From Bacteroidaceae bacterium (GTDB taxonomy: Bacteria > Bacteroidota > Bacteroidia > Bacteroidales > Bacteroidaceae): a stretch of 64,000 nucleotides of DNA. Made by a program: the position numbers and the translations under genes. The stretch covers positions 62,001 through 126,000 of the forward strand of contig JAKSIP010000002.1 of assembly GCA_024398715.1 (NCBI GenBank), read 5' to 3'. This document shows positions 21,801-39,575 of the stretch, piece after piece. Each line of letters opens with the position of its first letter. Within the stretch, counting starts at the first letter, position 1. The notes beneath the pieces were generated by a model that was not told the origin of the DNA, did not search any database, and worked only from the letters and a program-made list of their open reading frames with translations.

Positions 21801-22002
21801 CCGGATCTACAATGTCAAGCTCTATCTGGTGGGCACCGGCTCCCGGATAAACAACGGCAACCAAAGCTTGTTTTATTGCAATTTTAGGGTCTTCAAGTTT
21901 GCTTATGAAAATGGTCCCCAATATGCCTCCAATACAGATGGACAAAACAAGAAAATATATCAGTTTCCTGTTTCTCAATGAATAACCTCCAATATCGAAC
22001 AT
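18892..22002 (-). CDS. RND efflux pump inner-membrane subunit (AcrB-like)
   Basis: 1036 aa, full length for the hydrophobic-amphiphilic efflux family, with about 12 membrane helices and two large periplasmic loops. The start MFDIGGYSLRNRKLIYFLVL is unusual but membrane-directed. In helix 4 the proton-relay motif reads GMLVDNAIVIVD, so the second Asp of the AcrB pair is Asn, unlike the second pump of this window, which has VVDDT. C-terminal IGMLIKNAIILIDEI is the helix-10 counterpart. It acts with the adaptor (22017-23087) and TolC (17438-18895). Substrate unknown. Confidence 0.92.
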   Translation of the reverse strand: MFDIGGYSLRNRKLIYFLVLSICIGGILGTIFISKLEDPKIAIKQALVAVVYPGAGAHQIELDIVDPVELAIKTISNVSSVESTCYNDLALIQVSFDRTTPKKDIPQSFDLLRKTIEDYRSNLPQGASLMVNDSFGDVYGMFYVLTGDSYSPREMSRYANHIKRRLQMIPGVSNIELFGEHQECVNILVDRARMANLGILPAELLSLLNGQDATSYAGYMNTGGNRIRITVDGKFSDVGSIGDLIVQGHQDDQIKLSDIATIEVGIEEPARQTITHNGKHGIAISISGKDGTDIVRLDKEVRKVLEDVELPAGMQLESVFSQPEEVVNALTVFATNLIESVIIVIAILMLTMGFRSGVIIGQVLIISILGSLLALFMTGGSLQRVSLATFVLAMGMLVDNAIVIVDGIITDLQMGKPRQEALTSICKKTSWPLLCATLIAIFAFMPPYITGDTVGEYLHDLFIVLAVSLMLSWILAITYVPIISEHYLRIRPVEDQSALYGNKAYKLLYKVLDWTLHNRTLFCIAAIALVGLSIYHYKNLPQEFFPDMEYDQIFIEYKMPEGTSQYQVEEDLNQISDYLKKRGDVTSVTMALGGTPSRYNLVRPIAHPSLAYGELIVRFESNKAVLAALPSVQDYISTNYPQAKARAKRYNLMFKPYAIELEFKGPDPAVLKSLTATAMQVMQEDPNVRSVSSNWDRQSPVLKARYDQSKARLAGVSRTELSYSFLAATEGLPVGTFYDRDYTMPIYIRIVEDGQPLEYFDQTPVLTAIPPVTSIDGNDIKGLLTGTETKDDILEKLLTGRTVDAVCSDIDVDFEEPVVFRKEQERTMRAQCDPVFGVSTETARQSVEKHLEGKIELPQGYTMSWQGEKAASEESMSELIKKIPVAIFIILALIIALFKDYKRPIIIFMCLPLLAIGIVYGVMISGKAFGFVAICGCLGLIGMLIKNAIILIDEIDAQMASGIEPLKALIDSSMRRFRPVMMASLTTILGMIPLLRDSLFGSLAVTIIGGLFVGTLITLIAIPVLYSLFFKIKISK

Positions 22003-22016
22003 AACTGATTCTCAGA

Positions 22017-23087
22017 TTAAAGAATGTTTCCAATGTTTGTTTCCGAACTCTGCGCAATAGGCTTTACCTTTTGTCCCGGGTGCAGATAGCTTACGCCTGC
22101 AGATACAATCACATCGCCGCTCTGAAGACCTGACACAACTACGGCCAAATCATTTTTCTGTATTTGTGATATGGTAATGTGGCGCAGTCTGACTGTGTCA
22201 TCTTCAAGTATCCATACGCAACTTTCACCTTTTGAATCTGTGAACAGGGCGGAAACGGGAATATATACATTTTTGGTTTTTGAGGCATTGAGAGTGAATT
22301 TGATATTTGCTGCAAGGCCTACAGAAGGGTATTCTGCGCTTGTCTGTGTTCCTTTGGAATCAAATACCAGATCCAATTGGTACAACTGGTTCAAATTGAC
22401 CTTTTCAGAACAGTTCCTGATTTTCATGGTGTAGCATTCTCCGCCTACCATAGCAGAGATGTCTTCTATGTTGTCAATGTTATCTTTTATATGTTGCGGT
22501 ACTGCTACCTCAATGACTGGAACATCGCTTGAAATAAGTGAAATGACAGGATAGCCGGCGCCTACGGTCTCACCGCTGCGGTAGTGTATCTTTTCAACCA
22601 CAGAATTGAACGGAGCTGTCAGTCTGGTGTCATTCAATGAATTCCTGTGGGCGTTCAGTTTGGCTGTTATCTGCTGGAGTCCGTATGTGGCTTTCTCATA
22701 ATCGCTCTGATTCGCGCTGCCGCGTCTGTAAAGTTCAATGACACGGTCGGCTTGAGCTTTTATGCCGTCATATTCCGCCTGGGTTGCAGACAGCTGTATC
22801 TTGTAGTCACGGTCATCCATCTGTGCCAGAAGGTCCCCCTTTTTTACATGGTCTCCAACATTTACGGGAATATTTACAACCGGACCGCTTATGCGGAATG
22901 CAACATTGGCCTGACTGTTTGCTTTTACTTTCCCACTGTATGTGATAATCTTTGCAAGACTGTATGATTTGCATTCATATGTCTTGACACTTATCTCTTT
23001 TGTCTGGGATTTCTGTTCTGTTCTGCATGAAGACAAACATGCAGCAACTGTCAGAAGTGAACACAGTGTAAATACTTTATAATTCAT
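22017..23087 (-). CDS. RND periplasmic adaptor, lipoprotein
   Basis: 356 aa. A lipoprotein signal ends in the lipobox CLSSC (Cys21). The biotinyl-lipoyl half motifs SGPVVNIPVNVGDHVKKGDLLAQMD and LTAPFNSVVEKIHYRSGETV flank an alpha-hairpin (about 100-150). A beta-barrel and membrane-proximal domain follow. It bridges pump and TolC duct. It is the first gene of the operon; the 103-bp gap to the polyketide cluster contains a candidate promoter with an overlapping palindrome. Confidence 0.9.
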   Translation of the reverse strand: MNYKVFTLCSLLTVAACLSSCRTEQKSQTKEISVKTYECKSYSLAKIITYSGKVKANSQANVAFRISGPVVNIPVNVGDHVKKGDLLAQMDDRDYKIQLSATQAEYDGIKAQADRVIELYRRGSANQSDYEKATYGLQQITAKLNAHRNSLNDTRLTAPFNSVVEKIHYRSGETVGAGYPVISLISSDVPVIEVAVPQHIKDNIDNIEDISAMVGGECYTMKIRNCSEKVNLNQLYQLDLVFDSKGTQTSAEYPSVGLAANIKFTLNASKTKNVYIPVSALFTDSKGESCVWILEDDTVRLRHITISQIQKNDLAVVVSGLQSGDVIVSAGVSYLHPGQKVKPIAQSSETNIGNIL

Positions 23088-24312: not shown

Positions 24313-25608
24313 TCAATTGCGTTTGTCAATAAATTTGTTGGGCTTGCGCTTGGTAGGCGGCATCTGTATTGCTGTAATATGGTCAATGTCTTCAAATTCT
24401 ATGTCCGGAGTCACGCGTATCTTTGCGCGGAACATATCTTTAAGTTCCTTGACCATGTTGATTCTGTCCGTTCTCTTTGTTCCAATGAACACTTTCACAC
24501 TGTCTGTGCCCAATTCATTTGTATAGACCTCTACCAGATAGTTGACTACGTAAGGAACATTGTCAAGCAGTTCAAAGAGTGTGGCAGGGTAAAGTGTTGT
24601 ACCTTTCAGTTTGATCATGTGGTTTTTGCGGCCTACAAGCGGACTGACGCGCATTGTGTTCCTTCCGCAGGGACACGGCTCGGTATGGAAACTTGTGATG
24701 TCGCCAGTGCGGAAACGCAGAAGAGGCATACCCTCAACACCAAGACTGGTGATGGTAAGTTCTCCAGTTTCTCCAGCAGGAAGCACATTCCCGTTTTCAT
24801 CAAGAATCTCGCAAATAAGCAGTTCCGGATGGTGGTGACCTCCATGACCGTATTTGCATTCTGTGAAAGAGTGCCCCATTTCCGTTGACGCATATGTTGA
24901 AAACAGTTCAATAGGCCATTTTTCTGTAATCTTGCATCCCAACTGATTGAGGGAGAAATCCTGATTACGCAAATTTTCTCCTATGCAGATGGCTTTTTTG
25001 ACGGAGCTGTTTCTATAGTCAATGCCGTGTTCCTCCGCATACTGGATAAGTCTTGTTATGAAAGACGGTACGCATATTATGCCTGTAGGATTCAAACGGT
25101 TGATTGTATCCCATTGCAATTCAGGAATGCCGTTACCTACGCGGATAACGCTGCTCCCCAGTTTGATGACTCCCATAAAGTAAGCCAGACCTGCCATAAA
25201 GCTTTTGTCTATGGTAGTCATGAGCTGGTATATTTCTCCGGGATGACCGCCAGCGCATTCAAAGGCAATCTGTTCGTTATATGCCAGACGCTCAAGGTCT
25301 TTTACGGTAAGAGCGAATGTGGTTGGAACGCTGAGTGTTCCCGATGTGCAGACATAATCCGCTATCTTGTCTTTCGGCACGCACAGGAAATCGTTGTTGT
25401 GCATCTGCAAGTCCTGTTTTGTTGTGCACGGAATATATGAAAGATCTTCCAGCTTTCTTATTTTGGATACATCTATGTGATTGTCTGAAAAAAGTTTGCG
25501 GTAGTATGGAGATTTGGCATTCATATACTGAAGCATTTCCTGCATACGTTCCTCCTGAAACTTTTTTATGACATCTGCCGGTTCAAATTCAATCTGTGGT
25601 GTAAACAT
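24313..25608 (-). CDS. PaaK-like AMP-forming acyl/aryl ligase
   Basis: 431 aa, phenylacetate-CoA-ligase-like adenylate-forming enzyme. The nucleotide loop is TSGTLSVPTTF (about 88-98), YASTEMG is the core motif (about 236-242), FRTGDI is the hinge-proximal motif, and the C-terminal lysine region is KRKPNKFID. A Cys-rich EPCPCGRN segment follows RTGD, as in coenzyme-F390-synthetase-like ligases. In aryl polyene clusters such a ligase activates the aryl starter acid for loading on the ACP. Here that is inferred from context; the substrate (coumarate or hydroxybenzoate) is not readable. Confidence 0.82.
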   Translation of the reverse strand: MFTPQIEFEPADVIKKFQEERMQEMLQYMNAKSPYYRKLFSDNHIDVSKIRKLEDLSYIPCTTKQDLQMHNNDFLCVPKDKIADYVCTSGTLSVPTTFALTVKDLERLAYNEQIAFECAGGHPGEIYQLMTTIDKSFMAGLAYFMGVIKLGSSVIRVGNGIPELQWDTINRLNPTGIICVPSFITRLIQYAEEHGIDYRNSSVKKAICIGENLRNQDFSLNQLGCKITEKWPIELFSTYASTEMGHSFTECKYGHGGHHHPELLICEILDENGNVLPAGETGELTITSLGVEGMPLLRFRTGDITSFHTEPCPCGRNTMRVSPLVGRKNHMIKLKGTTLYPATLFELLDNVPYVVNYLVEVYTNELGTDSVKVFIGTKRTDRINMVKELKDMFRAKIRVTPDIEFEDIDHITAIQMPPTKRKPNKFIDKRN

Positions 25609-25641: not shown

Positions 25642-28600
25642 TTATTCCGACTGCAAGACTATATTGCTTATGTTTTTTGTTGCAGTACTGATTATGTCAA
25701 ATTTATTGCTGTCTGTATGTTTGACTCTGAATGTGACATCAGGCCGTACAAGAGCGCTTATCAGGATCTTTTCACCATATCCTGAACAGGTCTCTGAAAT
25801 TTCCGAACCGGACGGTATCTGTTCAAGTTCTCTTTGCAGGTTTTCAAAACCGATATGTGAGAGTGTGCTGCAGGTGCTGCGGTAAACATCCGCACCTTTG
25901 TACAGGTATGTGCGCCTGACGTATTCCTTATAGTAGGAACAGGTCTCGGTGCGACGGCATATTTCCTGATATTTTTCCCTATACAGTCTTTGTGCTGTCT
26001 GTGCGCATGCCAGAGCGCTCTGTTCTTTGGAAACAGTTGTGGCGGGTAGAACGGTGATGTCTATTCTGCCTTTGCGCAGCACGAATTCTTTTTTGGCAAG
26101 AACGTGTCCAATTCCGTGTACAATTACAGGTCTGATGTCAAGATCCAGCTCTTTGGCAAGATGATATGCACCCTGATAGAAATGTGTAATGGAACAGTCT
26201 GCAGAACGGCTCCCTTCAGGAAATACAAGAACGGAATAACCGCGTGCTACCATTTTCTTTATGCGCGGCATGGCGGCATCAAGACCGTTGGATACGGGAA
26301 TGAAGTCTGCCATTCTGATAATCCATCCGTAGAACGGACAGTTCCATACCCATCTGTTTGTCAGAACTGTTATTCTGGGATTCAGCATCAGTGTGTATAA
26401 CAGATCAAGGTGAGACTGGTGGTTGCATGTAATTATGCATGGCTTGTCAAACGTGCTGCCTGTAAGACCGTGTACGTCAAAAGGTACTCCAGGCATGGCT
26501 TTTGCCAACAGGCGGAAAACTTTGCATAACAGTTTGTGGTATGCCATGGTATGCATTGTGAACAGTCCTGCAATGTCCATGACAATAGTGGCAAGAACAA
26601 ATACCGTAAAGACGAATATTGTCTTGAGAATATCCCACAGTGTTACGGGCATACGTCTCTGCTCTCCTTTTTTATATGTCAGAATCCTGAAGAGATACGG
26701 CGGAATGATATAGGACATGAGAACAACGGAGAACATTCCTATTATGGTAACCTGCGCCAGTGAACGCATGGCCGGATGTTCGGCAAGAATAAGCGTACCT
26801 ATTCCGGCAAACATTATCAGTGCGGACAGCAGTATGCTGTTTTTGTAGAATGCCAAACGTTTCTTTCCTGTGCCGTATTCGTAAACAAGACCTTCTGTTA
26901 CAAAAATGGAATAATCGTCTCCCTGTCCGAATATGAATGTGGCAAGTATTATGTTGACAATATTGAACTGAATACCTGTCATCCCCATTATTCCAAGAAT
27001 CCATATCCAGGCAACGGCAAGCGGAGTGAATGCAATCAGTGCCAGCTCGATGCGTCCGAAAGATATAAGAAGGAATGCGAATACAAGGAATCCGCAAATG
27101 TACAGTACAAGATTGAAATCCTGGGACAGCGCATTGCTCATGCGCCCCGCCACAGATTTGTTCTCAAATGTGAATATGTTGCCGTTGATATTGTCCAATA
27201 TCTGTGTTACCTGTTCCAGATGTCTGTTGTCAACTGTCAGAATGTTGTAAATGATGGTGTTGTCACGGTCACTGTAGATATAGTTCCCGGAAATCTGCTG
27301 TATGGCCCTTGCAAAATATTCCGTCTCGTGCGTAGAAACCTGATTCTGCAGCATACCTGCAAATCCGCTGAATGCTGACTCTCTGAATCCGAGTTCCGAT
27401 GCCGTAGCAAGTACTCTTTCCAAAAGTCCTTTCCCGTTTGTCTCTATGAATGCGTTCCAACGTTCCAATTGCTTCTGTTGCATCCGACGGCTCGGAATAA
27501 AGTTGCCTATGCCGCTGTGAGATTCAATAAGACCTTGTCCGGCAAGTTCTTTTATCGCACGGTCAGCATCGTGCTGCAGGTCCAGTGCATGCTCCATGTT
27601 TTCTCCGTATGCTACGCAGTACAATGTGGTGCGGTCAGCATCGTTATCGGTGGCGTATTCACTGAAGAACGCACTTTGCTGTGGAGTCATGTAGTTTATA
27701 TTGTGCATGTCCGTGTCAAAACCGGTGCGACCCGCAAAAATGTAGAATACAATTGACAGTATTATTACGGCAGGCATGACAAACCGTTGCCGCTCCAGTT
27801 GGATGGACACTATTTTTCCAAAAGCAAGATTGCGGTTCGCGGAAGTTCCCCTACCCAACATGTGCGGCAGGAAGATTACAACAAACAGAATGGTGCCGAC
27901 AAGAAGCAGGGCGGCTGTCAGTCCAAGATCCTTCATTGCTGGAGAACTTATGAACAGCAGACTTATGAAAGCTCCTACAGTGGTTATGTTCCCGGTTACC
28001 ATAGGCTTGACAACCGTTTCCATAATACTGATCTTATCAGGATCCTTTTTGAATGCTGACAATATGTGGATAGGGTAGTTGACAGCAAGACCCATTATTA
28101 TTGAAGCCACGCCTATGGCAATGATGCTCACATCGGTTTTTACAAGACTCAGCAGACCTATGGCGAATATCGCTCCGCACAGTATGGAAAGGGCAATAAG
28201 CAGAATGCTGCGAACATTACGGTAGTAGTATACCAGTAATGCAATAATGATTACCAGCGCTATGGCAATTGCCTTTATGGAGTCTTTCTTTATCCGGTCC
28301 GCATTGGTGTGGGCTACGGAAATTGCTCCGAAATGTGAGATTGCAACAGTATTGTCAAACTGCGCGGAAACGTCAGATGAACATTGCTCTATCATGGATA
28401 GCAGACGCCCGTTGTTCATTGTCTCGCTTACGGGGTAGGCCGATGTCACTACCACTACAGCTTTGGTTGTGTCTTGAGAGAATATGTAGTCTCCAACCCG
28501 CTCAAACTTGTCTCCCGCCTTGAAATTTTCCAGTTCTGACATAATCCTGCCCGAAAAATGAAGAGGATCGGACAATATTATGTTTCTTGCCGCTCCCAAA

Positions 28601-29097
28601 GGCGATGACAGCAGTATTTTGTCATTCAGAAGAGCCTGTCTTATCTTATCTGGCTGGATTATTGTATCTATCCTGCTGTAATCGGTACTGTCAAGATAGA
28701 ACGGCATATTGGCTGCTACAAATCCCGCAACCTGGGCAACACTGTTGTTGTCAATATGTGCGGTTATTCTTTTGATTACCCCTATTGTGTCTGCATGATA
28801 CAGGGAGAGTTCCATGGCATCGGCCGCCTGCTCCAGCAGCCATGTATCTTCTTTGTCAAAAACAGAACCGGTATGTTCTATCAGAATTACAACGGTGTTG
28901 TCTCCGCCAAGATGGGTGTATGCATTGTTGATGCGTTTGTACTGGGCACTGTTTGGGAAAAAACCGGAAATGTCTTCTGTAAACCGGAATCTTGAAGCAC
29001 TGGATATTGAAAGCACTATGCATATGGCAAAAATGAGCCACATTATCTTTTTGTGCCCGTCAAGATAGTTGTATATTGCTTTGGCTATTTTTTCCAT
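25642..29097 (-). CDS. MMPL-type exporter fused to PlsC acyltransferase and a remnant methyltransferase domain
   Basis: 1151 aa. Residues 1 to about 780 form an RND/MMPL exporter: helix at 17-35, first periplasmic domain to about 265, a helix cluster, second periplasmic domain, second helix cluster with ATFIFGQGDDYSIFVTEG. After two linking helices (about 800-850) comes an acyltransferase with NHQSHLD (His893, Asp898) and FPEGS (959-963). The last 85 residues (YLYKGADVYRSTCSTL; then SGYGEKILISAL and a TDSNKFDIIS segment) resemble the first part of a class I methyltransferase, motif I degenerated, ending after motif II. Probable role: moving the (acylated) polyene across the inner membrane. 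Its ATG overlaps the GT2 stop by one base. Confidence 0.85.
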   Translation of the reverse strand: MEKIAKAIYNYLDGHKKIMWLIFAICIVLSISSASRFRFTEDISGFFPNSAQYKRINNAYTHLGGDNTVVILIEHTGSVFDKEDTWLLEQAADAMELSLYHADTIGVIKRITAHIDNNSVAQVAGFVAANMPFYLDSTDYSRIDTIIQPDKIRQALLNDKILLSSPLGAARNIILSDPLHFSGRIMSELENFKAGDKFERVGDYIFSQDTTKAVVVVTSAYPVSETMNNGRLLSMIEQCSSDVSAQFDNTVAISHFGAISVAHTNADRIKKDSIKAIAIALVIIIALLVYYYRNVRSILLIALSILCGAIFAIGLLSLVKTDVSIIAIGVASIIMGLAVNYPIHILSAFKKDPDKISIMETVVKPMVTGNITTVGAFISLLFISSPAMKDLGLTAALLLVGTILFVVIFLPHMLGRGTSANRNLAFGKIVSIQLERQRFVMPAVIILSIVFYIFAGRTGFDTDMHNINYMTPQQSAFFSEYATDNDADRTTLYCVAYGENMEHALDLQHDADRAIKELAGQGLIESHSGIGNFIPSRRMQQKQLERWNAFIETNGKGLLERVLATASELGFRESAFSGFAGMLQNQVSTHETEYFARAIQQISGNYIYSDRDNTIIYNILTVDNRHLEQVTQILDNINGNIFTFENKSVAGRMSNALSQDFNLVLYICGFLVFAFLLISFGRIELALIAFTPLAVAWIWILGIMGMTGIQFNIVNIILATFIFGQGDDYSIFVTEGLVYEYGTGKKRLAFYKNSILLSALIMFAGIGTLILAEHPAMRSLAQVTIIGMFSVVLMSYIIPPYLFRILTYKKGEQRRMPVTLWDILKTIFVFTVFVLATIVMDIAGLFTMHTMAYHKLLCKVFRLLAKAMPGVPFDVHGLTGSTFDKPCIITCNHQSHLDLLYTLMLNPRITVLTNRWVWNCPFYGWIIRMADFIPVSNGLDAAMPRIKKMVARGYSVLVFPEGSRSADCSITHFYQGAYHLAKELDLDIRPVIVHGIGHVLAKKEFVLRKGRIDITVLPATTVSKEQSALACAQTAQRLYREKYQEICRRTETCSYYKEYVRRTYLYKGADVYRSTCSTLSHIGFENLQRELEQIPSGSEISETCSGYGEKILISALVRPDVTFRVKHTDSNKFDIISTATKNISNIVLQSE

Positions 29098-29883: not shown

Positions 29884-30255
29884 TTAAATGAGCTTGAGAT
29901 TCATTTTGGCCAGTGTGATGCCGTCATGCTCTACAGTGACTTTTGTAACTCCGTTATCTGACGGGGTGAACGTGTAACGTATGCTGGGAATCTCTTCCGG
30001 ATTGATGCTTCTGAAAAATTTGACGCCGGAAACCTGTCTGAGAGAGAGTTCATTTTTATCTCCCCAAGCGTTCTGGCTTGCAGCCGATGCCAGCTCTACA
30101 GCCATCTGGACCAGAGCTACACCGGGCGTTATTGGCTGGGAAGGAAAATGCCCCCTGTAAATGTCAGACTCTCTGATAAGCCCAATGTCAACCTGACTCT
30201 GCTGGGGATTGGCTGAGATGTTTCTTATGTGGTATAGCCTATCTTTCAGAACCAT
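29884..30255 (-). CDS. FabZ-like 3-hydroxyacyl-ACP dehydratase (hotdog fold), Gln at the Glu site
   Basis: 123 aa hotdog protein. HFPSQPITPGVALVQ carries the catalytic His36 of FabZ/ApeI-type dehydratases. The position of the second catalytic residue, normally Glu (FabZ) or Asp (FabA), is Gln50. It would dehydrate the 3-hydroxyacyl intermediate in each round of polyene extension, perhaps only together with the second hotdog domain of the cluster (C-terminus of 36447-37730). Start and stop abut the LolA-like gene with no spacer. Confidence 0.8.
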   Translation of the reverse strand: MVLKDRLYHIRNISANPQQSQVDIGLIRESDIYRGHFPSQPITPGVALVQMAVELASAASQNAWGDKNELSLRQVSGVKFFRSINPEEIPSIRYTFTPSDNGVTKVTVEHDGITLAKMNLKLI

Positions 30256-30753
30256 TTATTCAACATTTAGTTTCTGGTTGGAGAACTGTATGGTGGTAAT
30301 GTCTCCGTTCTGTTCGCAGATGATTATCCGGTTGGCTATGCGGACATCTTTCTGGGTTAAGATTTCCATACTCTTGAATATGCCGCGTGCACGTTGTGAG
30401 CGTGGAGTTACGGTAATCTTACTTGTGCCGTCCTCTGCCGGAACTGAATTCACGGTGAAATCCTTCCGCTTTGAATCAAAGTCTCCTTTTATGATGGAAG
30501 TGATCAGCTCTTTGATGTCGGAAAAGGCATTGCCTGATTTGCCTGAGAACTCTACCTTCATTTCCACAGGGTAGGTGTAACACCACACAAGAGAGTCTGG
30601 CGAAATAAAGCGTACGTAACCTTTCTGGGTGGACCCGCCTTCAAAAATGACAGACTCCTTGGTCTGTACAAAATCGGCATACAATTCCAGTTTCTGTGCC
30701 GACAGCGAAATGCAGCACAATACCAGCAGGAATGTGAATAAGTATCTTTTCAT
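30256..30753 (-). CDS. LolA-like outer-membrane lipoprotein carrier
   Basis: 165 aa from ATG 30753, which begins the signal peptide MKRYLFTFLLVLCCISLSAQ; a start nine codons upstream is possible but unnatural. The mature part has the LolA pattern: FVQTKESVIFEGGSTQKGYVRFISPDSLVW near the N-terminus, then a half-barrel of strands (SKITVTPRSQRARGIFKSM). LolA-like proteins occur in aryl polyene clusters and are thought to carry the hydrophobic product through the periplasm. One base separates it from the EamA gene. Confidence 0.8.
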   Translation of the reverse strand: MKRYLFTFLLVLCCISLSAQKLELYADFVQTKESVIFEGGSTQKGYVRFISPDSLVWCYTYPVEMKVEFSGKSGNAFSDIKELITSIIKGDFDSKRKDFTVNSVPAEDGTSKITVTPRSQRARGIFKSMEILTQKDVRIANRIIICEQNGDITTIQFSNQKLNVE

Positions 30754-30754
30754 T

Positions 30755-31108
30755 TTACTTTGCAACAAGAACACAGCCAATCATAATAATGGCAACTCCA
30801 ATCCATCTTGAAACAGGAACAGACTCGTGAAATACTATAACAGAGGTAATCAAACCTGCTATGTAGCTGATTGAAAGCATGGGATATGCCTGGCTGAACG
30901 GATATTTCTTCAAAACGTACATCCAAAGAACTACCGAACTTAAAGCAAATATTCCGGAAACCGGAAACTGCCATGTGGTAAAGGCTTTTCTGAAGAAATC
31001 CCATGTCCATGAAAACTTCCCGAACAGTTCTACTGAAATTTTCAAAAAAGATTGCGCTCCAATCAGAAGAACGGACTGTATCAATACAAGTATTATCAGT
31101 CTAAGCAT
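30755..31108 (-). CDS. small EamA/EmrE-like four-helix membrane protein
   Basis: 117 aa with four membrane segments (about 3-22, 42-62, 70-90, 97-115), the size and layout of small multidrug-resistance/ArnE-type half transporters; PMLSISYIAGLITSVIVFHE is the typical EamA core segment. It may flip a lipid-linked intermediate, by analogy with ArnE/F. It overlaps the Cys-less KS gene by 13 bp, which ties it to the cluster. Confidence 0.72.
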   Translation of the reverse strand: MLRLIILVLIQSVLLIGAQSFLKISVELFGKFSWTWDFFRKAFTTWQFPVSGIFALSSVVLWMYVLKKYPFSQAYPMLSISYIAGLITSVIVFHESVPVSRWIGVAIIMIGCVLVAK

Positions 31109-32133
31109 TGTAACAAATATATTGAATGTTGTTTATTGTAACTGTTATATACGGCAATTGTTTTTGGAACATCGGTACAGCGTACCGAACCGTTCCTGTA
31201 TTGCAGGTTTGCCGGAATGAATCTGTTTTTCAGACAAACTGCGGCAACATATATGCCAAACGCACTGGAACACGGATTTTCTCCGAATATATGTTTGTAC
31301 CATAGCATCGGCCTGTTGCCAAGACATTTGCTGTTCAAATTCATTATCTGCCGGTTGTCCGGTGCTGATGCATTTATTACGGTGGCATCAATACGGTCTG
31401 CTGAAAGATTGTTGCGTTCCAACAGTCTGTCAAATACTTTTGCCAATGATTCTTCCGAATTGCAACGGATTATTTCTCCGTCAACCAGCCTGCAATATGA
31501 ATTGTCATTTTTGCGGTCTGAAAGCAGCATGCTCAGAGATGTCTGTCCTGTAACGGCAGATTCCAGCATATCAGTCTTGTTGAGAATTGTGTAAAACCGC
31601 TCTGTTATGTAGTCGTCGGCGCAGACCAGCACATTGTTCAGACGGTTGTTCCTGAACTGAAGAAGGCTATCCAGCAGGGCGCTGTCAAAAGACATTCCTC
31701 CGTGTGAATAGGTGGTATTGTAGCCTTGACACTGGAGTGTAAGGGCAATCAGTGTGCAAAGCGTGTTGTGCGTGGAATTGGTGAAAGCTGTAGGCTGTAG
31801 AAATTCCTCGTTGTTCCCAATCATGGAGAGCAGAAATTTTTCTGTCATCTCTATGCTTCCAAGTCCGGTTCCAAGTATTATCCCCTGTAGGGATTCCGCA
31901 CCGTTTTCAAGTGCTGCTCCTGCATTCTCTATCGCTTTTTTTGCCGTAACAACTGAAACTTTCAGCAGATTGTCCAGACGGCGTGCCGCAATGGGAGTGA
32001 AATACGGTTTGAAATCGGGATAGATGAACCCGTTATATGTATCTGTCTGATAGGGAATAGGAGACAGGAACCATTTTTCCGACAACGGCTCCTGAATGGA
32101 AATCTGTTCTATTGACTGTATATATATTCCCAT
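31096..32133 (-). CDS. Cys-less ketosynthase homologue (chain-length-factor-like)
   Basis: 345 aa, thiolase fold, shorter than a full KS (about 400-420). The KS active-site segment (TACSS) is replaced by TTYSHGGMS (140-148), so the nucleophilic Cys is absent. The HGTGT histidine motif is replaced by NASAPDN. A relic of the third motif remains in KHIFGENPCSSAFG. This is the pattern of KS-beta/chain-length factors, which pair with an active KS. The partner would be the KS directly upstream (32140-33339, 6-bp gap), as in described aryl polyene systems where an active KS pairs with a CLF-like subunit. Catalytic inactivity is inferred from the missing residues. Confidence 0.8.
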   Translation of the reverse strand: MGIYIQSIEQISIQEPLSEKWFLSPIPYQTDTYNGFIYPDFKPYFTPIAARRLDNLLKVSVVTAKKAIENAGAALENGAESLQGIILGTGLGSIEMTEKFLLSMIGNNEEFLQPTAFTNSTHNTLCTLIALTLQCQGYNTTYSHGGMSFDSALLDSLLQFRNNRLNNVLVCADDYITERFYTILNKTDMLESAVTGQTSLSMLLSDRKNDNSYCRLVDGEIIRCNSEESLAKVFDRLLERNNLSADRIDATVINASAPDNRQIMNLNSKCLGNRPMLWYKHIFGENPCSSAFGIYVAAVCLKNRFIPANLQYRNGSVRCTDVPKTIAVYNSYNKQHSIYLLQCLD

Positions 32134-32139
32134 GTTCCT

Positions 32140-33339
32140 TTATCGTGAAAAAAGAAGTGAAGTGTCGTTCCCGCCGAACCCGAATGCGTTGCAGAGCACA
32201 TTGTCCAGCCTGACACGGGTGATTGTTTCGGCTGTAGGCAGGAATGTCAGTTCATCTATTCTGTTTGTGAATCTCAGCGATGCCGGAACAAAACTGTTCT
32301 GCATTGCCAATATGCATATCACGCTCTCTACGCCACCGCTGGCACTTGTGGTGTGGCCGGTGAAAGATTTTGTGGACGATATGTATGGCACCTTGTCTCC
32401 GAAAAGACGCATTACAGCCATACCTTCACTCAAATCATTGTTGGGCGTACCTGTTCCGTGTGCGTTTATGTAGTCAATGTCGCCTGGCTTGAGATGGGCC
32501 ATATCCAATGCCTGTTCCATTGCTGCGTATGCACCGCGGCCGTCAGGCGATGATGCTGTCTGGTGGAAAGCATCGCATGCGTTGCCGTATCCTGCAAGAG
32601 TGCAGAGCGGGGTGGATTTGTGTGCTTCTGTCCATTCTTCACTTTCAATGACAAGGTAACCTGCGCCCTCGCCAAGATTCAGACCAGCCCTGGTCGCATC
32701 GAACGGACGGCATAAATCCTTGTCAAGAATCATCAGGGAGTTGAATCCGTTCAGGTGGAATTTTGAAAGACACTCGCAACCGCCGGCAACCGCAATGTCA
32801 ACATATCCGGATTTTATCAGTTCAGCACCCAGAATGATGGCTCCCGAAGCCGACGAACATGCCGTTGACGGAGTTGTTGCCATGCAGAACATATCTCCAA
32901 AATAATCTGCAATCACATCTGCGCAATTGCCGCACAGGAATTGCGGAATCTGGTCTTTGCGGTTATCCTGCGGATCTGTGAATGCGGTATAGAGCTGTTC
33001 GCAAATTTCCATGCCGCCTACGGTTGTGCCGCTTATGAATGCAATCCTTGCTCCCTGCTTGCGTGCCTCTTCAAGATGGGCCTGTTCCACTGCCTGTCTT
33101 ACGGCAATTGCTCCTAGCATGGCACTGCGTGAGAATTCAGTGTTGTTCCCTATACCCAGCATGGAGTGCAACTGTCCGTTGCTGTACTTTACTTCGCCGC
33201 AGGGAATCTCTTTATGAATGGTCTGCAGATATCGGATGGAGCTGATTCCGTGTTTTTTATCCAACAGATTCATCAGGGTCTGGCCTGTGCCGTTCCCTAT
33301 TGCGGAAATTATGCCTGTTCCTGTAATCTGCAAACTCAT
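32140..33339 (-). CDS. beta-ketoacyl-ACP synthase (FabF-type, elongating KS)
   Basis: 399 aa with the complete Cys-His-His triad: STACSSASG (Cys161), NAHGTGTPNND (His294) and TGHTTSASGG (His329). FNSLM, DATRAGLNLGEGAG and a C-terminal GFGGNDTSLLF complete the family pattern. It should catalyse decarboxylative condensation with malonyl-ACP on the polyene chain, probably as a heterodimer with the Cys-less protein downstream. It follows the ACP gene with an 18-bp gap. Confidence 0.92.
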   Translation of the reverse strand: MSLQITGTGIISAIGNGTGQTLMNLLDKKHGISSIRYLQTIHKEIPCGEVKYSNGQLHSMLGIGNNTEFSRSAMLGAIAVRQAVEQAHLEEARKQGARIAFISGTTVGGMEICEQLYTAFTDPQDNRKDQIPQFLCGNCADVIADYFGDMFCMATTPSTACSSASGAIILGAELIKSGYVDIAVAGGCECLSKFHLNGFNSLMILDKDLCRPFDATRAGLNLGEGAGYLVIESEEWTEAHKSTPLCTLAGYGNACDAFHQTASSPDGRGAYAAMEQALDMAHLKPGDIDYINAHGTGTPNNDLSEGMAVMRLFGDKVPYISSTKSFTGHTTSASGGVESVICILAMQNSFVPASLRFTNRIDELTFLPTAETITRVRLDNVLCNAFGFGGNDTSLLFSR

Positions 33340-33357: not shown

Positions 33358-33615
33358 TTACTTTGTACGGTTCTTTGAAATATAATCTGCCATAACTGCA
33401 ACGGACTGGAATATCTTTTTCCCTTCTGCGGCATTGGCTAATTTTATTCCATAGTTCTTCTCTAAAAGAACAATCAGTTCCAAAGCGTCTATGGAGTCAA
33501 GTCCAAGACCTTCTCCAAAAAGCGGCGCATTGGCATCTATCTCATCGGGATTCATGTCTTCAAGGTTAAGTGCCTCGATAATCTGTTCTTTAAGAGTCTG
33601 AATTAATTCTTCCAT
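33358..33615 (-). CDS. acyl carrier protein
   Basis: 85 aa, acidic and helical, with the phosphopantetheine attachment site GLDSID (Ser41) and helix-III segment LELIVLLEKNYGIKL. It carries starter and growing chain. It is the only ACP found in the cluster; described aryl polyene clusters commonly have two. It is preceded by a 2-bp gap from the half-KS gene. Confidence 0.93.
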   Translation of the reverse strand: MEELIQTLKEQIIEALNLEDMNPDEIDANAPLFGEGLGLDSIDALELIVLLEKNYGIKLANAAEGKKIFQSVAVMADYISKNRTK

Positions 33616-33617
33616 AA

Positions 33618-34259
33618 TTATTGTTTTGAGTATAAAATTTCTGTCAACTGTTTTCTGAAATAGGACATTTCCTCCTCATTTTCCGCTGTACTGCATGCGG
33701 GGCAGATTTCTACATGCAAAAGTAATACTTTACATTCATCTTTCAAAATATCGCACCAGCCGCATATTGCGTGACGGGTGTTGCGTTCCCGTTCAAGATA
33801 CAGCAGCTGGCTGTACAACTGTTCCGCAGACAGACTTTCTGCTATATAGCACATAGTTTCTCCGAATATCCTGTGGCGTATTGCAATTTCTCCGCATACT
33901 ATGTTGGCAAGGGTATATACAAATACGTGTGGGGAAGGGTAGTAGTTGTTATTGTCTGCAATTGTTTCCATGTGCTGCAGGTCAGTGTCAAGTGAACCTG
34001 CACCGGAAAAAAGAACAACGGCAGTATCCTCTTTTGGCTGAACATCTTCATTCTCCGGCAATACCTGTTCGGCGGCAAGGAATCCGGCCTTGGACAGATT
34101 GTCCATTTTGTAGAACTTGGGGTAGGACAGACCGCTTTCCTTGTGAACGTTTGTGAACCAGTCTTTAAGAGATTGCCCGTCTGGACGTTCAGAAACGGTT
34201 TCTCCATTGGCCGAAATAGTTCTTCCGTCTATTTTACAATATGATTTTACAGTTATCAT
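33618..34259 (-). CDS. half-length ketosynthase-like protein
   Basis: 213 aa, no signal peptide. Residues about 45-150 follow the N-terminal half of a ketosynthase: LSKAGFLAAEQVLP, VVLFSGAGSLDTDLQHM, PSPHVFVYTLANIVCGEIAIRH and FGETMCYIAES correspond to KS helix 3, the GTGxGG strand, the PYxLPNMAxGxIAI helix and the strand before the nucleophilic elbow. The catalytic Cys, both His motifs and the whole second half are missing; instead a short Cys-containing tail follows (CGWCDILKDECK, ICPACS). It overlaps the upstream KS gene by four bases. Function unknown; a structural partner of a KS is a reasonable guess. Confidence 0.65.
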   Translation of the reverse strand: MITVKSYCKIDGRTISANGETVSERPDGQSLKDWFTNVHKESGLSYPKFYKMDNLSKAGFLAAEQVLPENEDVQPKEDTAVVLFSGAGSLDTDLQHMETIADNNNYYPSPHVFVYTLANIVCGEIAIRHRIFGETMCYIAESLSAEQLYSQLLYLERERNTRHAICGWCDILKDECKVLLLHVEICPACSTAENEEEMSYFRKQLTEILYSKQ

Positions 34260-35413
34260 AATACCTCAAACAATGCGGCGGCATTGCTGCCTCCGAATCC
34301 GGAAATCAATTTAACAAAACAGTTTCTGCTGCTGTCTGTCTGGGCAGTCAGTTCCATGCAGGGATTGATCTTTCCTACAGTTCCCGGTGTAACAGTACCT
34401 TTGCATGGCAGAATAATGCCCTTTTTTATTGAATTGTAGGAAAGTATGGTCTCTACCACTCCTGCAGCCCCCAAAGTGTGACCCAAATATCCTTTAAGGG
34501 AATTGACAGGAATACTGCTCCATCCGGCCCGCTCAATGGCAACAGATTCCATATCGTCATTATACTGGGTTGCGGTGCCATGGGCGTTTATGAAAGAAAT
34601 CCTGTCCTTTTCTGCGCCCAATGCCTGAATGGCGCGCAACAGTCCTTCCGCTGTGCGGCTTGGAGCGGAAATGTGGTTGGCATCGTTCCTTATGGCTCCG
34701 CTTTTCATAACGAGGGAACCCTTTGGAATATCGGTACCTATAGTGTACACAATTGCAGCTGCTGATTCGCCAAGATTCAGCCCTTTACGGTTGGCGTCGA
34801 AAGGCATGCAGTGTTCTGTTGACAGAGCGCGGAATGACTGGAACCCTGATACTATGAATTTTGACAACTCTTCCGCACCGACCACTACCGCATATCTGTA
34901 TGTCTGCCTGTTGCCGGATGCACCGATACCGCCATATTTCAAGGCTCTCATGGCTGCTATCTGTGCCACAATTCCCGATGTGCATGCCAGAGATACCGTT
35001 ACTGGCATGTTTCTGTTCCCAAAATAACCGGCAATGCGGTTGGCGGTATGCCATACGTATGGAGTCATATCCTGTAATCCATGCGCAGCATTGTTGATAT
35101 TCCCCTTTGTGGATGATATTACAAACAGAACATTGTCCTGTGACGGATCGATGCCGGCCTGACGTATTGCGCGTGCTGCGGCAAGAATGGCGGCCTGTTC
35201 AACGGTTGTATATCTGCACTCACAGTTGAATTCCTTATCAAGATTTTCTCTGTCAAAAAGAGACGCGAAAAAAGGTTCCGGCAAGTCAAATGTACCCTTG
35301 TGAAGAGACAGCATGCTTGTGCCGTTCACAATAGAGTTGAAAGTCTGGTCAGATGTGTATCCAAGAGGAGAAACTATGCAGTTCCCGATAGCATATACTT
35401 GCTGTTCTGTCAT
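34256..35413 (-). CDS. beta-ketoacyl-ACP synthase (second KS, initiating type)
   Basis: 385 aa with an intact triad: SLACTSG (Cys144), NAHGTATQYND (His278) and LGHTLGAAG (His312); GFGGSNAAALFEVL ends the protein. It differs clearly from the other active KS, and by position corresponds to the extra KS found at the edge of aryl polyene clusters, proposed there to start or support extension. A good -7 element (35439-35446) lies in the 40-bp gap upstream, so this may begin the core transcript through 23191. Confidence 0.9.
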   Translation of the reverse strand: MTEQQVYAIGNCIVSPLGYTSDQTFNSIVNGTSMLSLHKGTFDLPEPFFASLFDRENLDKEFNCECRYTTVEQAAILAAARAIRQAGIDPSQDNVLFVISSTKGNINNAAHGLQDMTPYVWHTANRIAGYFGNRNMPVTVSLACTSGIVAQIAAMRALKYGGIGASGNRQTYRYAVVVGAEELSKFIVSGFQSFRALSTEHCMPFDANRKGLNLGESAAAIVYTIGTDIPKGSLVMKSGAIRNDANHISAPSRTAEGLLRAIQALGAEKDRISFINAHGTATQYNDDMESVAIERAGWSSIPVNSLKGYLGHTLGAAGVVETILSYNSIKKGIILPCKGTVTPGTVGKINPCMELTAQTDSSRNCFVKLISGFGGSNAAALFEVL

Positions 35414-35453: not shown

Positions 35454-36434
35454 TTATTGGATTCTGTAAATTTTGCCCAGCGTTTTTATTTCTTTGGAAG
35501 TGCGACCTTTTTTTACAATTGCCCAGAATTGTTTCTGCAGTTCCGTACTGAATGTGGTGGCAATGGGAGCAAGTGTTTCCAGATTGCTGTCTGTGAATGA
35601 CTTTAATGATCTGGCAAAAAGACCAATCAGATCAGGATCTTCTTTCAGACCATCAGATACGCACAGGGCTTTTTTCAGGAATTCTTCTGTAGAAACATAT
35701 CCGTTACTCTGCAGTTTGAAGAACTCCGTTATCCAATATTCGTTCGGAGACCAGATGTTGGATGTGCCTGGTAAATATCCGAATATTATGTTCATTTCTT
35801 CTGCGGAGTGAGGAAACAGTTCAAAATAGCGTTTTGCATCTTTCTCACCAGATAATCCCGCTTTCAGTTTGTTCTCCATGGAAAACAGGTTGTCAACACG
35901 TTTGTCCATTGTGCTTTCCAGAATAAATTCAACATCAAACTCATAACGGACTCTTGACGGTTTGCCGGCAGTAATTCCGGCAGACCAACCGGTACATCTG
36001 TCAATGGCTTTGACTACGCTTTCCGCCAATAACGGACTTATTCCGCTGTTGACTCCCACACGCCCCAGCGAGCCGTCGGCATTGACTATGAACTGGGCCT
36101 TGACAACACCGCTTATGTTCCGTTCAACAGCTTTCTGCGGATATCTGATATTCTGTTTAAGTTTTCTGACAAGTTCAGTCTGACCTCCCGGATACTGCGG
36201 CATTACGTCTGCCTTGTCTGCTGCAACACCTTTGCTTTTAAGCAGATACGGATTCGATGCTGTATCCTGTACTGTGTACAGGTTGCGTCTTATCAGCGCA
36301 ATGGTGTCAATTGTCTTGGAAATTTTGATGCCGGTAACTTTTTTGACTGGACTTTTAATCTTGTCCATTCCGTTCTGTGCCATGGCAGACAGGCAGAAAA
36401 GACACAAGGTCATATATGTGAATATCTTTTTCAT
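35454..36434 (-). CDS. exported TonB C-terminal-domain protein
   Basis: 326 aa. A signal peptide (MKKIFTYMTLCLFCLSAMAQ) is present instead of the membrane anchor expected for an energy transducer. Residues about 78-175 form a TonB C-terminal domain: MPQYPGGQTELVRKLKQNIRYP, GVVKAQFIVNADGSLGRVGV and SRVRYEFDVEF. The last 150 residues are helical and unassigned. Without an anchor it cannot be a classical TonB; it may bind envelope components in the periplasm. It sits inside the polyene cluster on the same strand, 12 bp after the acyltransferase-hotdog gene, so a link to product transfer is possible but unproven. Confidence 0.75.
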   Translation of the reverse strand: MKKIFTYMTLCLFCLSAMAQNGMDKIKSPVKKVTGIKISKTIDTIALIRRNLYTVQDTASNPYLLKSKGVAADKADVMPQYPGGQTELVRKLKQNIRYPQKAVERNISGVVKAQFIVNADGSLGRVGVNSGISPLLAESVVKAIDRCTGWSAGITAGKPSRVRYEFDVEFILESTMDKRVDNLFSMENKLKAGLSGEKDAKRYFELFPHSAEEMNIIFGYLPGTSNIWSPNEYWITEFFKLQSNGYVSTEEFLKKALCVSDGLKEDPDLIGLFARSLKSFTDSNLETLAPIATTFSTELQKQFWAIVKKGRTSKEIKTLGKIYRIQ

Positions 36435-36446
36435 ACGTAAAATGTT

Positions 36447-37730
36447 TCAACCCTGGATGAAAACTTTCAGACTTCTGCATGTGGCAAGAGTATGTCCGCC
36501 CGAGTCCGTAATTTCTCCATCAAGTACCAGAGCTCCTTCAATGTCTGACAATACGCTGATTGTACAGAATACACTTTGTCCCGCTTTTGCCTGTCCTGAA
36601 ACGGTCATACCGGAAACGCCTCCTATTGTACCGATCCTGATATGATCTTTGTTGAGCCAACCTATCCTGGCGGCTGCTGTCTGCGCAAAGACTTCAAGGT
36701 ATCCCGCTTCTGCAAACACGCCGTTGCTTACAAACAGAGAATCTTCTCTGATAATGTATTCGGCCACTGTCGTTTGCGGATTGCAGCTTATCAGGTTGTC
36801 TATCATAACCATAGGATCCTTTTGCGGCAACAGGCTTCTTGCAGGCATCGGTTTCCAGAACCGGTAGTAGTTGAACCATTGCAGCGGGTACCGCATTACA
36901 ATATTTTCCAGAGACTTTACATATTGCGCGCAGATGTATTCCGCTTTGGAACGTATTGTCTTTTTATCAGAATATTCGCTGCTTGAGGTATCCAGTTTCT
37001 CAATATACAGTCTGTATAGCAGTCCTTTCTCTTTGACAATATTTATGGAATATATATTGCATTCCGCCTTGGCTGCCAAAGCAAACGGGCCCATGGGAAA
37101 TTCTGCCAGCCTGCCGCAGAATTGCATGGAGAAACATTTGGAACTGCCGAAAGCCCTGTCGCAGGCCATGGCGGCGAAGTTCCCCTCTGAAAGTGCATTG
37201 CTCAAGGTGAAGATATGGCTCATATCAGGCTGTACTGATATAAGTTCAACGCCAAAGTTGCTTATTGCCTGAGTTCGTTTCTGTTGTAGAACCATGCTTT
37301 CGCCACCATAGACAAGACTGTAAATCTTTTTCCCGCAATGGTTTACGCAGTGTCCGCACAACTCAAAGTTACCTGTGTGCGCTCCGGCAATCACTGCCGC
37401 TTTGTCTATATCTACGGGGTTGTAGTTATTGGCAAATTCAACAGGAAAGTTTCTTCCGGCCAAAAGTGCGAATTTGTCAAGCACAACCTTACCGAATACA
37501 ACATGGTTCAGGTATGTGCTGAAAAAAGCTTTGAATGTTCCGAAACCGTGAATCTGTCTGAAATACTGGTATGTGACAATATAACCTTTATGGGCAAAGA
37601 GCATGTAGAACGGAATGATCAGGTAGAGCAGTGGGTACAGAAAATCCGGTCTGACTGTTTTGAATATCCAAATCAGCACCGTTTGTCCAAACTTACCGCC
37701 CCCGGTTGTCCCTTTCCAATTCCTCTCCAT
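36447..37730 (-). CDS. fusion of lipid-A-type acyltransferase (LpxL/HtrB-like) and hotdog dehydratase
   Basis: 427 aa. Residues 1 to about 295 are an LpxL/HtrB-like acyltransferase: hydrophobic anchor (about 29-47), catalytic AHTGNFE (His118, Glu123; HX4E), ACDRAFGSSK, and QWFNYYRFW near its end. Residues about 297-427 form a hotdog domain of the kind seen as separate ApeP-like dehydratases or thioesterases: LLPQKDPMVMIDNLI, FAEAGYLEVFAQTAAAR and a C-terminal strand LKVFIQG. The fusion suggests that the second dehydratase function of polyene extension and transfer of the finished chain to a lipid are physically linked. It overlaps nothing and precedes the TonB-like gene. Confidence 0.8.
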   Translation of the reverse strand: MERNWKGTTGGGKFGQTVLIWIFKTVRPDFLYPLLYLIIPFYMLFAHKGYIVTYQYFRQIHGFGTFKAFFSTYLNHVVFGKVVLDKFALLAGRNFPVEFANNYNPVDIDKAAVIAGAHTGNFELCGHCVNHCGKKIYSLVYGGESMVLQQKRTQAISNFGVELISVQPDMSHIFTLSNALSEGNFAAMACDRAFGSSKCFSMQFCGRLAEFPMGPFALAAKAECNIYSINIVKEKGLLYRLYIEKLDTSSSEYSDKKTIRSKAEYICAQYVKSLENIVMRYPLQWFNYYRFWKPMPARSLLPQKDPMVMIDNLISCNPQTTVAEYIIREDSLFVSNGVFAEAGYLEVFAQTAAARIGWLNKDHIRIGTIGGVSGMTVSGQAKAGQSVFCTISVLSDIEGALVLDGEITDSGGHTLATCRSLKVFIQG

Positions 37731-37739
37731 AGGTTACTG

Positions 37740-38471
37740 TCAGGTATAGAGACCGCCGTTGATTGAAATTACCTGACCAGTTATGTAGGCGGCATCGGGC
37801 GATGCAAGGAATCCTACCAGTGCCGCAACCTCTTCGGGCTTGCCAAAGCGGCCGGCCGGAATGTTCTTTGTAAGCTCATCGTGGTCAAGGTCTTTGGTCA
37901 TATCCGTCTCAATAAAGCCCGGTGCAACTGCATTGACTGTAATCTTGCGTTTGCCTACTTCTTGTGCCAAAGCCTTTGTGATACCTATCAGAGCAGCTTT
38001 TGCAGCGGAATAGTTGACCTGTCCAGGAAGTCCTTTCAGACCTGAAAGCGATGCAATATTGATTATGCGGCCGTTGCGTTTCAGCAGCATATTCTTGAGC
38101 AGGAATTTTGTTATGTAGAAGGTGCTGTTAAGGTTGGTGTCTATTACACTTTCCCAGTCCTGGTCCGGCATCATGATCATAATATTGTCACGGCGTATGC
38201 CGGCGTTGTTTACAAGACAACTTATATATTCTCCCGGGTTGGCCTGCTGCCATTCTTCCAGTTTCTTTATAAAATCTGCGCTGTCTGCCACATTTCCTGC
38301 AAGCAGCTCTGCACTGCCTCCTGCCGCCTCAATCTGTGCAAGCGTATCCTGTGCAGCCTCGAGGTTCGAGTTGTAATTGATTAATACGTGGTAGCCCATG
38401 GCGGCAAGCTTGATGCTGATGCTTTTGCCAATGCCGCGTGAACCGCCTGTTACCAATGCGTTATTTGCCAT
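37740..38471 (-). CDS. 3-oxoacyl-ACP reductase (FabG-like, cluster ketoreductase)
   Basis: 243-aa short-chain dehydrogenase. GGSRGIG (9-15) binds NADPH, NNAGIRRD follows, Ser/Tyr/Lys are in SLSGLKG and YSAAKAA, and the C-terminus ITGQVISINGGLYT is typical of FabG. It reduces the 3-keto group in each extension round. It lies 15 bp after aroC. A cluster-specific role rather than housekeeping FabG is inferred from its neighbours. Confidence 0.9.
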   Translation of the reverse strand: MANNALVTGGSRGIGKSISIKLAAMGYHVLINYNSNLEAAQDTLAQIEAAGGSAELLAGNVADSADFIKKLEEWQQANPGEYISCLVNNAGIRRDNIMIMMPDQDWESVIDTNLNSTFYITKFLLKNMLLKRNGRIINIASLSGLKGLPGQVNYSAAKAALIGITKALAQEVGKRKITVNAVAPGFIETDMTKDLDHDELTKNIPAGRFGKPEEVAALVGFLASPDAAYITGQVISINGGLYT

Positions 38472-38486
38472 AATTCATAAATGTTT

Positions 38487-39575
38487 TTATTTTCCCTGTA
38501 AAACCAAATCCAATGTGACAAGCGATGCCACCGCCTCTACCACTGCTACCGCGCGCGGTACAATGCAAGGGTCATGACGTCCGTTGACAGTGAGCTCAGC
38601 ACTCTCGCCGGCCTGAAGATCAACGCTTTGCTGCGTGCGGCTTATCGATGGGGTGGGCTTGACTGCTACGCGGAATATTATTGGCATTCCGCTGCTGATC
38701 CCCCCTAAAATTCCACCATGATTGTTGGTAGCTGTAACAACACGGCCGTTTTCAAATGCAAACGGGTCATTGTTCTGTGAACCGCGCATGCGTGATACCG
38801 CAAAACCGGCACCGAATTCCACTCCCTTGACTGCCGGGATTCCGAACAGTGCCTGTGACAGCTGCCCTTCTATGCCATCGAACAATGCTCCGCCGTAACC
38901 GGCTTCAAGACCTGTTACAGCACATTCAATAGTGCCTCCTATGCTATCCTGGTCCATACGGCACTCTTCAATCAGAGCTTGCATTTTCACCCCCTGTTCC
39001 TGGCTTATTACCGGGAAACCAAGGTAGTCAATCTGTCCTGTCTGTCCTGTCGGGTCAAGCGGGTTGAACGCCGTGTCTTCTATGTTTCCTATCGATGCAA
39101 TGTGTGCATCAATCCGTATTCCTTTGCTTTCAAGTATCTGTTTGCAGATACCGCCTGCAATACAAACGGGAGCTGTCATACGTCCCGAAAAACGGCCTCC
39201 GCCGCTGGTAAAGTTCTCTGCTCCGTATTTGACGTACGCAGTATAGTCGGCGTGCCCCGGACGTGGAACAAAACGGGTGTTTCCGTAATCCTGAGGTCTG
39301 ATATTCGTATTGACAATAATGGCTTTTACTCTACTGCCATTTATGGTGAAATTGCCGTTGTCATCAAAGTCCACGCCTTCTGTAAATTGTGGCACATCAG
39401 GCTCTTTGCGTGGTGTTGACCATGCGTTGCGACCCGGTGCACGGCGCTGCATAAAGGTATTCAATGCATCGGCATTGATGGTAATTCCTTGTGGAAGACC
39501 ATTAATTTCACAACCTATCTGTACTGAGTGTGATTCTCCGAATACATTGAGTTTTATTATGTTTCCTATATCCAT
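38487..39575 (-). CDS. aroC: chorismate synthase
   Basis: 362 aa; converts 5-enolpyruvylshikimate 3-phosphate to chorismate with reduced FMN. Signatures: NVFGESHSVQIG near the N-terminus, RRAPGRNAWSTPRKEPD, SGGGRFSGRMTAP and NNHGGILGGISSGMP. Length matches the family. Its position, 6 bp after the CDF gene and 15 bp before the cluster ketoreductase, puts supply of aromatic precursors in the same transcript as the aryl polyene genes. Confidence 0.95.
   Translation of the reverse strand: MDIGNIIKLNVFGESHSVQIGCEINGLPQGITINADALNTFMQRRAPGRNAWSTPRKEPDVPQFTEGVDFDDNGNFTINGSRVKAIIVNTNIRPQDYGNTRFVPRPGHADYTAYVKYGAENFTSGGGRFSGRMTAPVCIAGGICKQILESKGIRIDAHIASIGNIEDTAFNPLDPTGQTGQIDYLGFPVISQEQGVKMQALIEECRMDQDSIGGTIECAVTGLEAGYGGALFDGIEGQLSQALFGIPAVKGVEFGAGFAVSRMRGSQNNDPFAFENGRVVTATNNHGGILGGISSGMPIIFRVAVKPTPSISRTQQSVDLQAGESAELTVNGRHDPCIVPRAVAVVEAVASLVTLDLVLQGK

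Follow-up and report, generated by a model that had tools for sequence, protein, structure and literature searches.

A half-length ketosynthase-like protein as a proposed chain length factor-like partner of a ketosynthase in flexirubin-type clusters of Bacteroidota

Within a 64,000-nucleotide stretch of Bacteroidaceae DNA (hereafter, the window), a gene at 33618..34259 of the minus strand encodes a 213-aa, half-length ketosynthase (KS)-like protein, half-KS, that appears to be non-catalytic. We propose that half-KS is a chain length factor (CLF)-like subunit with a single thiolase domain, which probably docks on the product of the adjoining KS gene, KS1, as the other half of a dimer and shapes the acyl tunnel of its partner. 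Its predicted fold of a KS half, its natural fusion with KS1, its invariant co-occurrence, the purifying selection acting on its family and the precedent of ApeC all argue for such a role.

The half-KS gene and the surrounding cluster

A sequence-only reading of this DNA had described a 213-aa open reading frame that lies beside an acyl carrier protein (ACP) gene and is coupled by a 4-bp overlap to an active KS. This description proved accurate, the coding strand being the minus strand; the plus strand at 33618-34259 is full of stops. The overlap is ATGA, in which the 3′ end of the KS1 gene (TTATGA) supplies the ATG start of half-KS. KS1 (34256..35413, minus strand, 385 aa) is an intact ketosynthase with Cys-His-His and is fused to half-KS in many relatives. 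The ATG of the ACP (33358..33615, minus strand, 85 aa, above the NF006617 cut-off) is positioned 2 bp past the half-KS stop. Half-KS is not a chance open reading frame, because orthologues are present in 50 of 150 related genomes and 583 candidate loci encoding a relative were found in GTDB species genomes.

The genes that follow the ACP, those with coordinates on the same minus strand, are those of KS2 (32140..33339), an intact ketosynthase of 399 aa; a 345-aa KS-like protein (31096..32133), which matches PF13723 and is a proposed CLF of KS2; an EamA/SMR-like membrane protein; a LolA-like protein (30256..30780), whose closest curated model is flexirubin LolA2, although it falls below the cut-off of that model; an ApeI/FabZ-like dehydratase (29884..30255); a glycosyltransferase; an MMPL exporter fused to an acyltransferase domain (25642..29097); and a FlxY-type acyl-CoA ligase of flexirubin biosynthesis (24313..25608). 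On the other side of KS1, also on the minus strand, are genes for a lipid A acyltransferase-like protein (36447..37730) and a FabG-like ketoreductase (37740..38471). FlxY was assigned by its curated cut-off (671 bits against 520) and the other cluster genes by Pfam/NCBIfam matches. With FlxY, ACP, KSs, dehydratase, LolA and the MMPL exporter together, the cluster is, as judged from its gene content, of the flexirubin/aryl-polyene type. It resembles the flexirubin cluster (flxA-flxY) of Chitinophaga pinensis and Flavobacterium johnsoniae in having FlxY, LolA, an MMPL exporter and several KSs (PMC3992019). The main text of that report names FlxC, I, L, N and O as putative ketosynthases and assigns no half-length CLF.

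A difference from the flxA-flxY cluster is that the window's genome yielded no aromatic ammonia-lyase (PF00221). A chorismate synthase gene (38487-39575, minus strand) precedes the FabG gene on that strand, with 15 bp between the end of the one and the start of the other. One interpretation of these two observations is that the aryl starter may be derived from chorismate instead of tyrosine, although FlxY is present. A gene for a TonB C-terminal domain protein (35454-36434, minus strand) lies inside the cluster, flanked by KS1 and the acyltransferase gene. Just beyond FlxY, and on the same strand, is an RND efflux system (17438-23087) composed of a membrane fusion protein, an AcrB-type pump and an outer membrane factor, which might belong to pigment export. 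In many Prevotella-related genomes, a housekeeping FabF gene is located near the cluster, approximately 4-6 kb upstream of KS1 (loci L036, L056, L078, L098-L100, L104, L106 and L112 among them); the housekeeping FabF of the window's genome is on a different contig from the pigment cluster.

Fold, conservation and selection

The sequence similarity of half-KS to ketosynthases is weak and confined to their N-terminal half, as the sequence-only reading had stated. Residues 64-159 of the FabF model match it with an E value of 1e-5, FabF 4ddo was a PDB sequence match (E 5e-5), and Pfam PF00109 remained sub-threshold (E 0.053). The AlphaFold2 model, for which 34 natural sequences served as input, has a pLDDT of 87.8 and a pTM of 0.85 and consists of an N-terminal domain and a short C-terminal element, not of two thiolase-fold domains in one chain. 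Over residues 1-213, the model gave Z scores of 11-13 to many KS and CLF chains, among them the ishigamide CLF 6kxf_B and FabF 4qav (13.1 each), the Xenorhabdus doucetiae ApeC 6qsp_B (238 residues; 11.6 over 180 residues) and the Acinetobacter baumannii ApeC 7f28_C (198 residues; 11.5 over 168 residues), and KS/CLF matches were obtained with Foldseek as well. Fold prediction, which had been suggested as a check, thus returned a thiolase-type fold, and we regard this fold as secure for the modeled protein. In an alignment to E. coli FabF, the column of the catalytic Cys is occupied by Ser142 of half-KS and both His columns are absent, in agreement with the earlier claim that these motifs are lost; half-KS accordingly lacks the Cys-His-His triad of a catalytic beta-ketoacyl-ACP synthase, which KS1 and KS2 retain in the same alignment. 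Half-KS is thus like FabF (beta-ketoacyl-ACP synthase II), to which it has its best sequence similarity, in representing the N-terminal half of the same fold, but differs from it in having neither the triad nor the C-terminal thiolase domain.

The conserved residues of the half-KS family lie in two stretches, PKFxKMDxLxKxGF and PSPxxFVYTLPNIVTGEIAIR, with a GE pair after the second, and in a GW close to the C-terminus; the invariant motifs span the phylum Bacteroidota. The most conserved segment, PSPxxFVYTLPNIVTGEIAIR, is aligned with FabF 129-150, which we take to be part of the KS dimer interface and to contribute to the acyl pocket. Strong matches to the family occur in 48 of the 150 related genomes and in 34 of 395 genomes sampled across the phylum, the window's own genome included; the other matches listed among the 395 are weak and lie in open frames of KS size. 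Among the 150 relatives, strong half-KS matches and strong matches to the 345-aa family share genomes, with the exceptions of G026, where the contig ends, and G003, where the half-KS gene is at a contig edge. Of the 48 genomes with a strong half-KS match, all but one also have the 345-aa protein, and the contig of that one is cut.

Two explanations of half-KS that dispense with a CLF-like role were considered in the light of these comparisons. One is that half-KS binds metal or acts in redox chemistry through two CxxC-like pairs, CGWC and CPAC, which the sequence-only reading had described as kept. Both pairs do occur in the window protein, but it is alone in this among 53 family members compared, and CGWC is found in just one close relative (L003). 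The pairs are, on this comparison, a peculiarity of the window sequence, and we rejected a CxxC function as scarcely credible. The other explanation, that half-KS is the remnant of a decaying ketosynthase, would be in keeping with its half length and its lost triad. The median pairwise dN/dS, which had been proposed as a check, is 0.10 for half-KS, compared with 0.073 for KS1 and 0.036 for the ACP, values that are descriptive because the pairs overlap in ancestry; KS2 values were not used because short loci hold one complete KS, so that they partly repeat those of KS1. Between the window half-KS and its nearest relative, L003, dN is 0.30 and dS is 1.25. These ratios indicate that the family is under purifying selection. 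Furthermore, no complete cluster without half-KS was found among the 150 relatives, so that complete clusters have not lost the gene, and its motifs are invariant across the phylum. Because of the low dN/dS and the retention of the gene in complete clusters, half-KS is therefore not decaying, and we consider this explanation, which the sequence-only reading had offered as one option, to be highly improbable.

Proposed pairing with KS1

The order KS1-half-ACP-KS2 is constant across Bacteroidales and in other classes or orders of the phylum, where the half-KS family also occurs; a small gene separates KS1 from half-KS in some loci that do not belong to Bacteroidales. In 42 of 80 named loci, KS1 and half-KS form one open reading frame of 544-675 aa. 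On a tree of 135 half-KS sequences, the fusion label changes eight times, and at least three of the changes are forced by well-supported branches. One natural fusion (L083, 559 aa) is predicted to consist of a KS followed by the half-KS domain (pLDDT 90.7; the pTM, 0.73, is not a decisive value for domain placement); in structure searches with this model (Foldseek/VIA), the KS part alone was aligned. In five of the 80 loci, half-KS is in frame with the ACP and not with KS1, and these loci fall in a single clade on the tree. These frames, of 300-312 aa and with an irregular linker (L051:7956-8894, L055:7992-8900, L059:7992-8900, L063:4332-5234 and L074:7992-8900), could be genuine fusions, or the stop may have been lost while the ACP still starts internally.

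There is a precedent for a CLF of such small size. In the ApeO-ApeC system, the CLF is about half the size of a KS and has one thiolase domain (PMC8358021), and ApeC acts as a CLF through its complex with ApeO (PMC8253772). Half-KS shares with ApeC (6QSP, 7F28) its approximate length, the single thiolase domain, the lack of a triad and the occurrence together with an active KS in a cluster of the aryl-polyene type and, like ApeC, would be expected to have no condensing activity of its own. We infer that half-KS would form a heterodimer with KS1 and line its pocket, with control over chain length or starter. According to this model, half-KS would use its equivalent of the KS dimer interface to dock on KS1, thereby taking the position of the second monomer, and the PSPxxFVYTLPNIVTGEIAIR segment would sit at the position of the FabF dimer interface and acyl pocket. 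Half-KS, which would catalyze no condensation without its own Cys-His-His, would close off the acyl tunnel of KS1 and give it its shape while the aryl-polyene (flexirubin-type) chain is extended, and might thereby shape or limit the growing pigment chain. Among the best structural matches of half-KS is also Iga12 of the ishigamide KS-CLF (6KXD), the CLF of a polyene-making type II PKS; the profile match is weak (E 0.02), the identity is only about 15-17%, and Iga12, unlike half-KS, is nearly full length (about 360 residues).

Certain observations do not sit easily with a CLF-like partner of KS1. Canonical CLFs have Gln at the position equivalent to the KS Cys, whereas this position is variable in the half-KS family (mostly E, D, A, N, H, R or K). 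Half-KS covaries with KS1 only marginally more than with KS2, and the five loci in which half-KS is in frame with the ACP fit ACP docking equally well. One could envision that half-KS is a scaffold, an option of the sequence-only reading, or an ACP-docking platform, which binds KS1 and the ACP and neither lines the tunnel nor sets chain length. The half-KS gene always adjoins that of the ACP, the two are in frame in the one clade, and surface arginines of AbApeC have been proposed to contact ACPs (PMC8358021). The most conserved part of half-KS, however, is the equivalent of the KS dimer interface and not an exposed basic patch, and fusion to KS1 is far commoner than fusion to the ACP (42 versus 5 of the 80 loci); we think, for these reasons, that a scaffold is unlikely, although it deserves more weight than the other alternatives. 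A further hypothesis is that half-KS is the Bacteroidota orthologue of ApeC (the ApeC/PF13723 family), and KS1 that of ApeO. The shared size class, single thiolase domain and kind of cluster favor it, as do the structural matches to ApeC (Z 11.5-11.6) and the presence of ApeO 6qsp_A among the best PDB matches of KS1. PF13723, on the other hand, matches none of 20 half-KS family members (E up to 1), whereas it does match E. coli ApeC (9e-67) and the short, 206-aa relatives of the 345-aa protein (3e-15). The half-KS profile did not align to ApeC, but this is a weak test, since hhalign gave signals too faint for a decision when this profile was set against ApeC or FabF as single sequences, and FabF itself was barely found. 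Orthology with ApeC was rejected because the PF13723 cut-off was not reached, and we consider it quite improbable. The gatekeeper option of the sequence-only reading, in the form of a CLF-like partner of KS1, is the best supported.

The ApeC-family protein and a proposed second KS pair

Although half-KS lies outside PF13723, the cluster does have a member of this family, namely, the 345-aa protein beside KS2. PF13723 matches the window protein with an E value of 5e-7, and the profile of the 345-aa family aligned to ApeC with a probability of 94% (E 2e-7). The protein has neither the Cys nor the His motifs. Family members fall into two length classes, of about 318-367 aa and about 205-209 aa, and few are intermediate in length; from the window and loci L053, L077, L090, L094, L101 and L107, it looks as if truncation had occurred inside one type of cluster. 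KS2 and its ApeC-family neighbor are encoded by separate genes or, in many relatives, by a fused open reading frame of 573-787 aa, the one-frame loci including L034, L035, L037, L044, L045, L051 and L055. The adjoining or fused arrangement of half-KS and KS1 also differs from that of apeC and apeO in E. coli, which are far apart. In a KS tree, KS1, KS2 and housekeeping FabF are separate; ApeO and ApeR sit on branches so long that the tree places neither of them and does not tell which of KS1 and KS2 corresponds to ApeO. The best PDB match of KS2 was 9S5H.

Because the 345-aa protein belongs to PF13723 and the half-KS family falls outside it, the cluster appears to contain two KS/pseudo-KS pairs, whose CLF-like members come from two families of distinct sequence, and both pairs occur in fused form. 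A more general interpretation, which we advance tentatively and would hold to be nearly as probable as its opposite, is that flexirubin-type clusters of Bacteroidota encode a KS1/half-KS heterodimer and a KS2/ApeC-family heterodimer, and that the half-KS family became a single-domain CLF independently of ApeC. Given that long and half-length forms of the ApeC-family protein are found in the same clusters, truncation of CLFs would then be recurrent and selected.

To our knowledge, ApeC is the only half-length CLF known. Half-length CLFs have been described already, and the half-KS family is, by its profile matches, another sequence family. No description of it was found in the open-access literature, in which flexirubin combined with chain length factor led to the E. 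coli aryl polyene paper alone, and it lacks an NCBIfam model (of 34 members scanned, 33 had no match of any kind). If the proposed role is correct, half-KS would add to ApeC a half-length partner of different sequence, retained in pigment clusters throughout the phylum and naturally fused to its KS, and would reveal the minimal part of a KS that is needed to control a partner KS. The natural fusions would be single-chain KS-CLF proteins, which should be easier to express and to solve, and the half-KS gene, so far unassigned in flexirubin-type clusters, would have a likely role.
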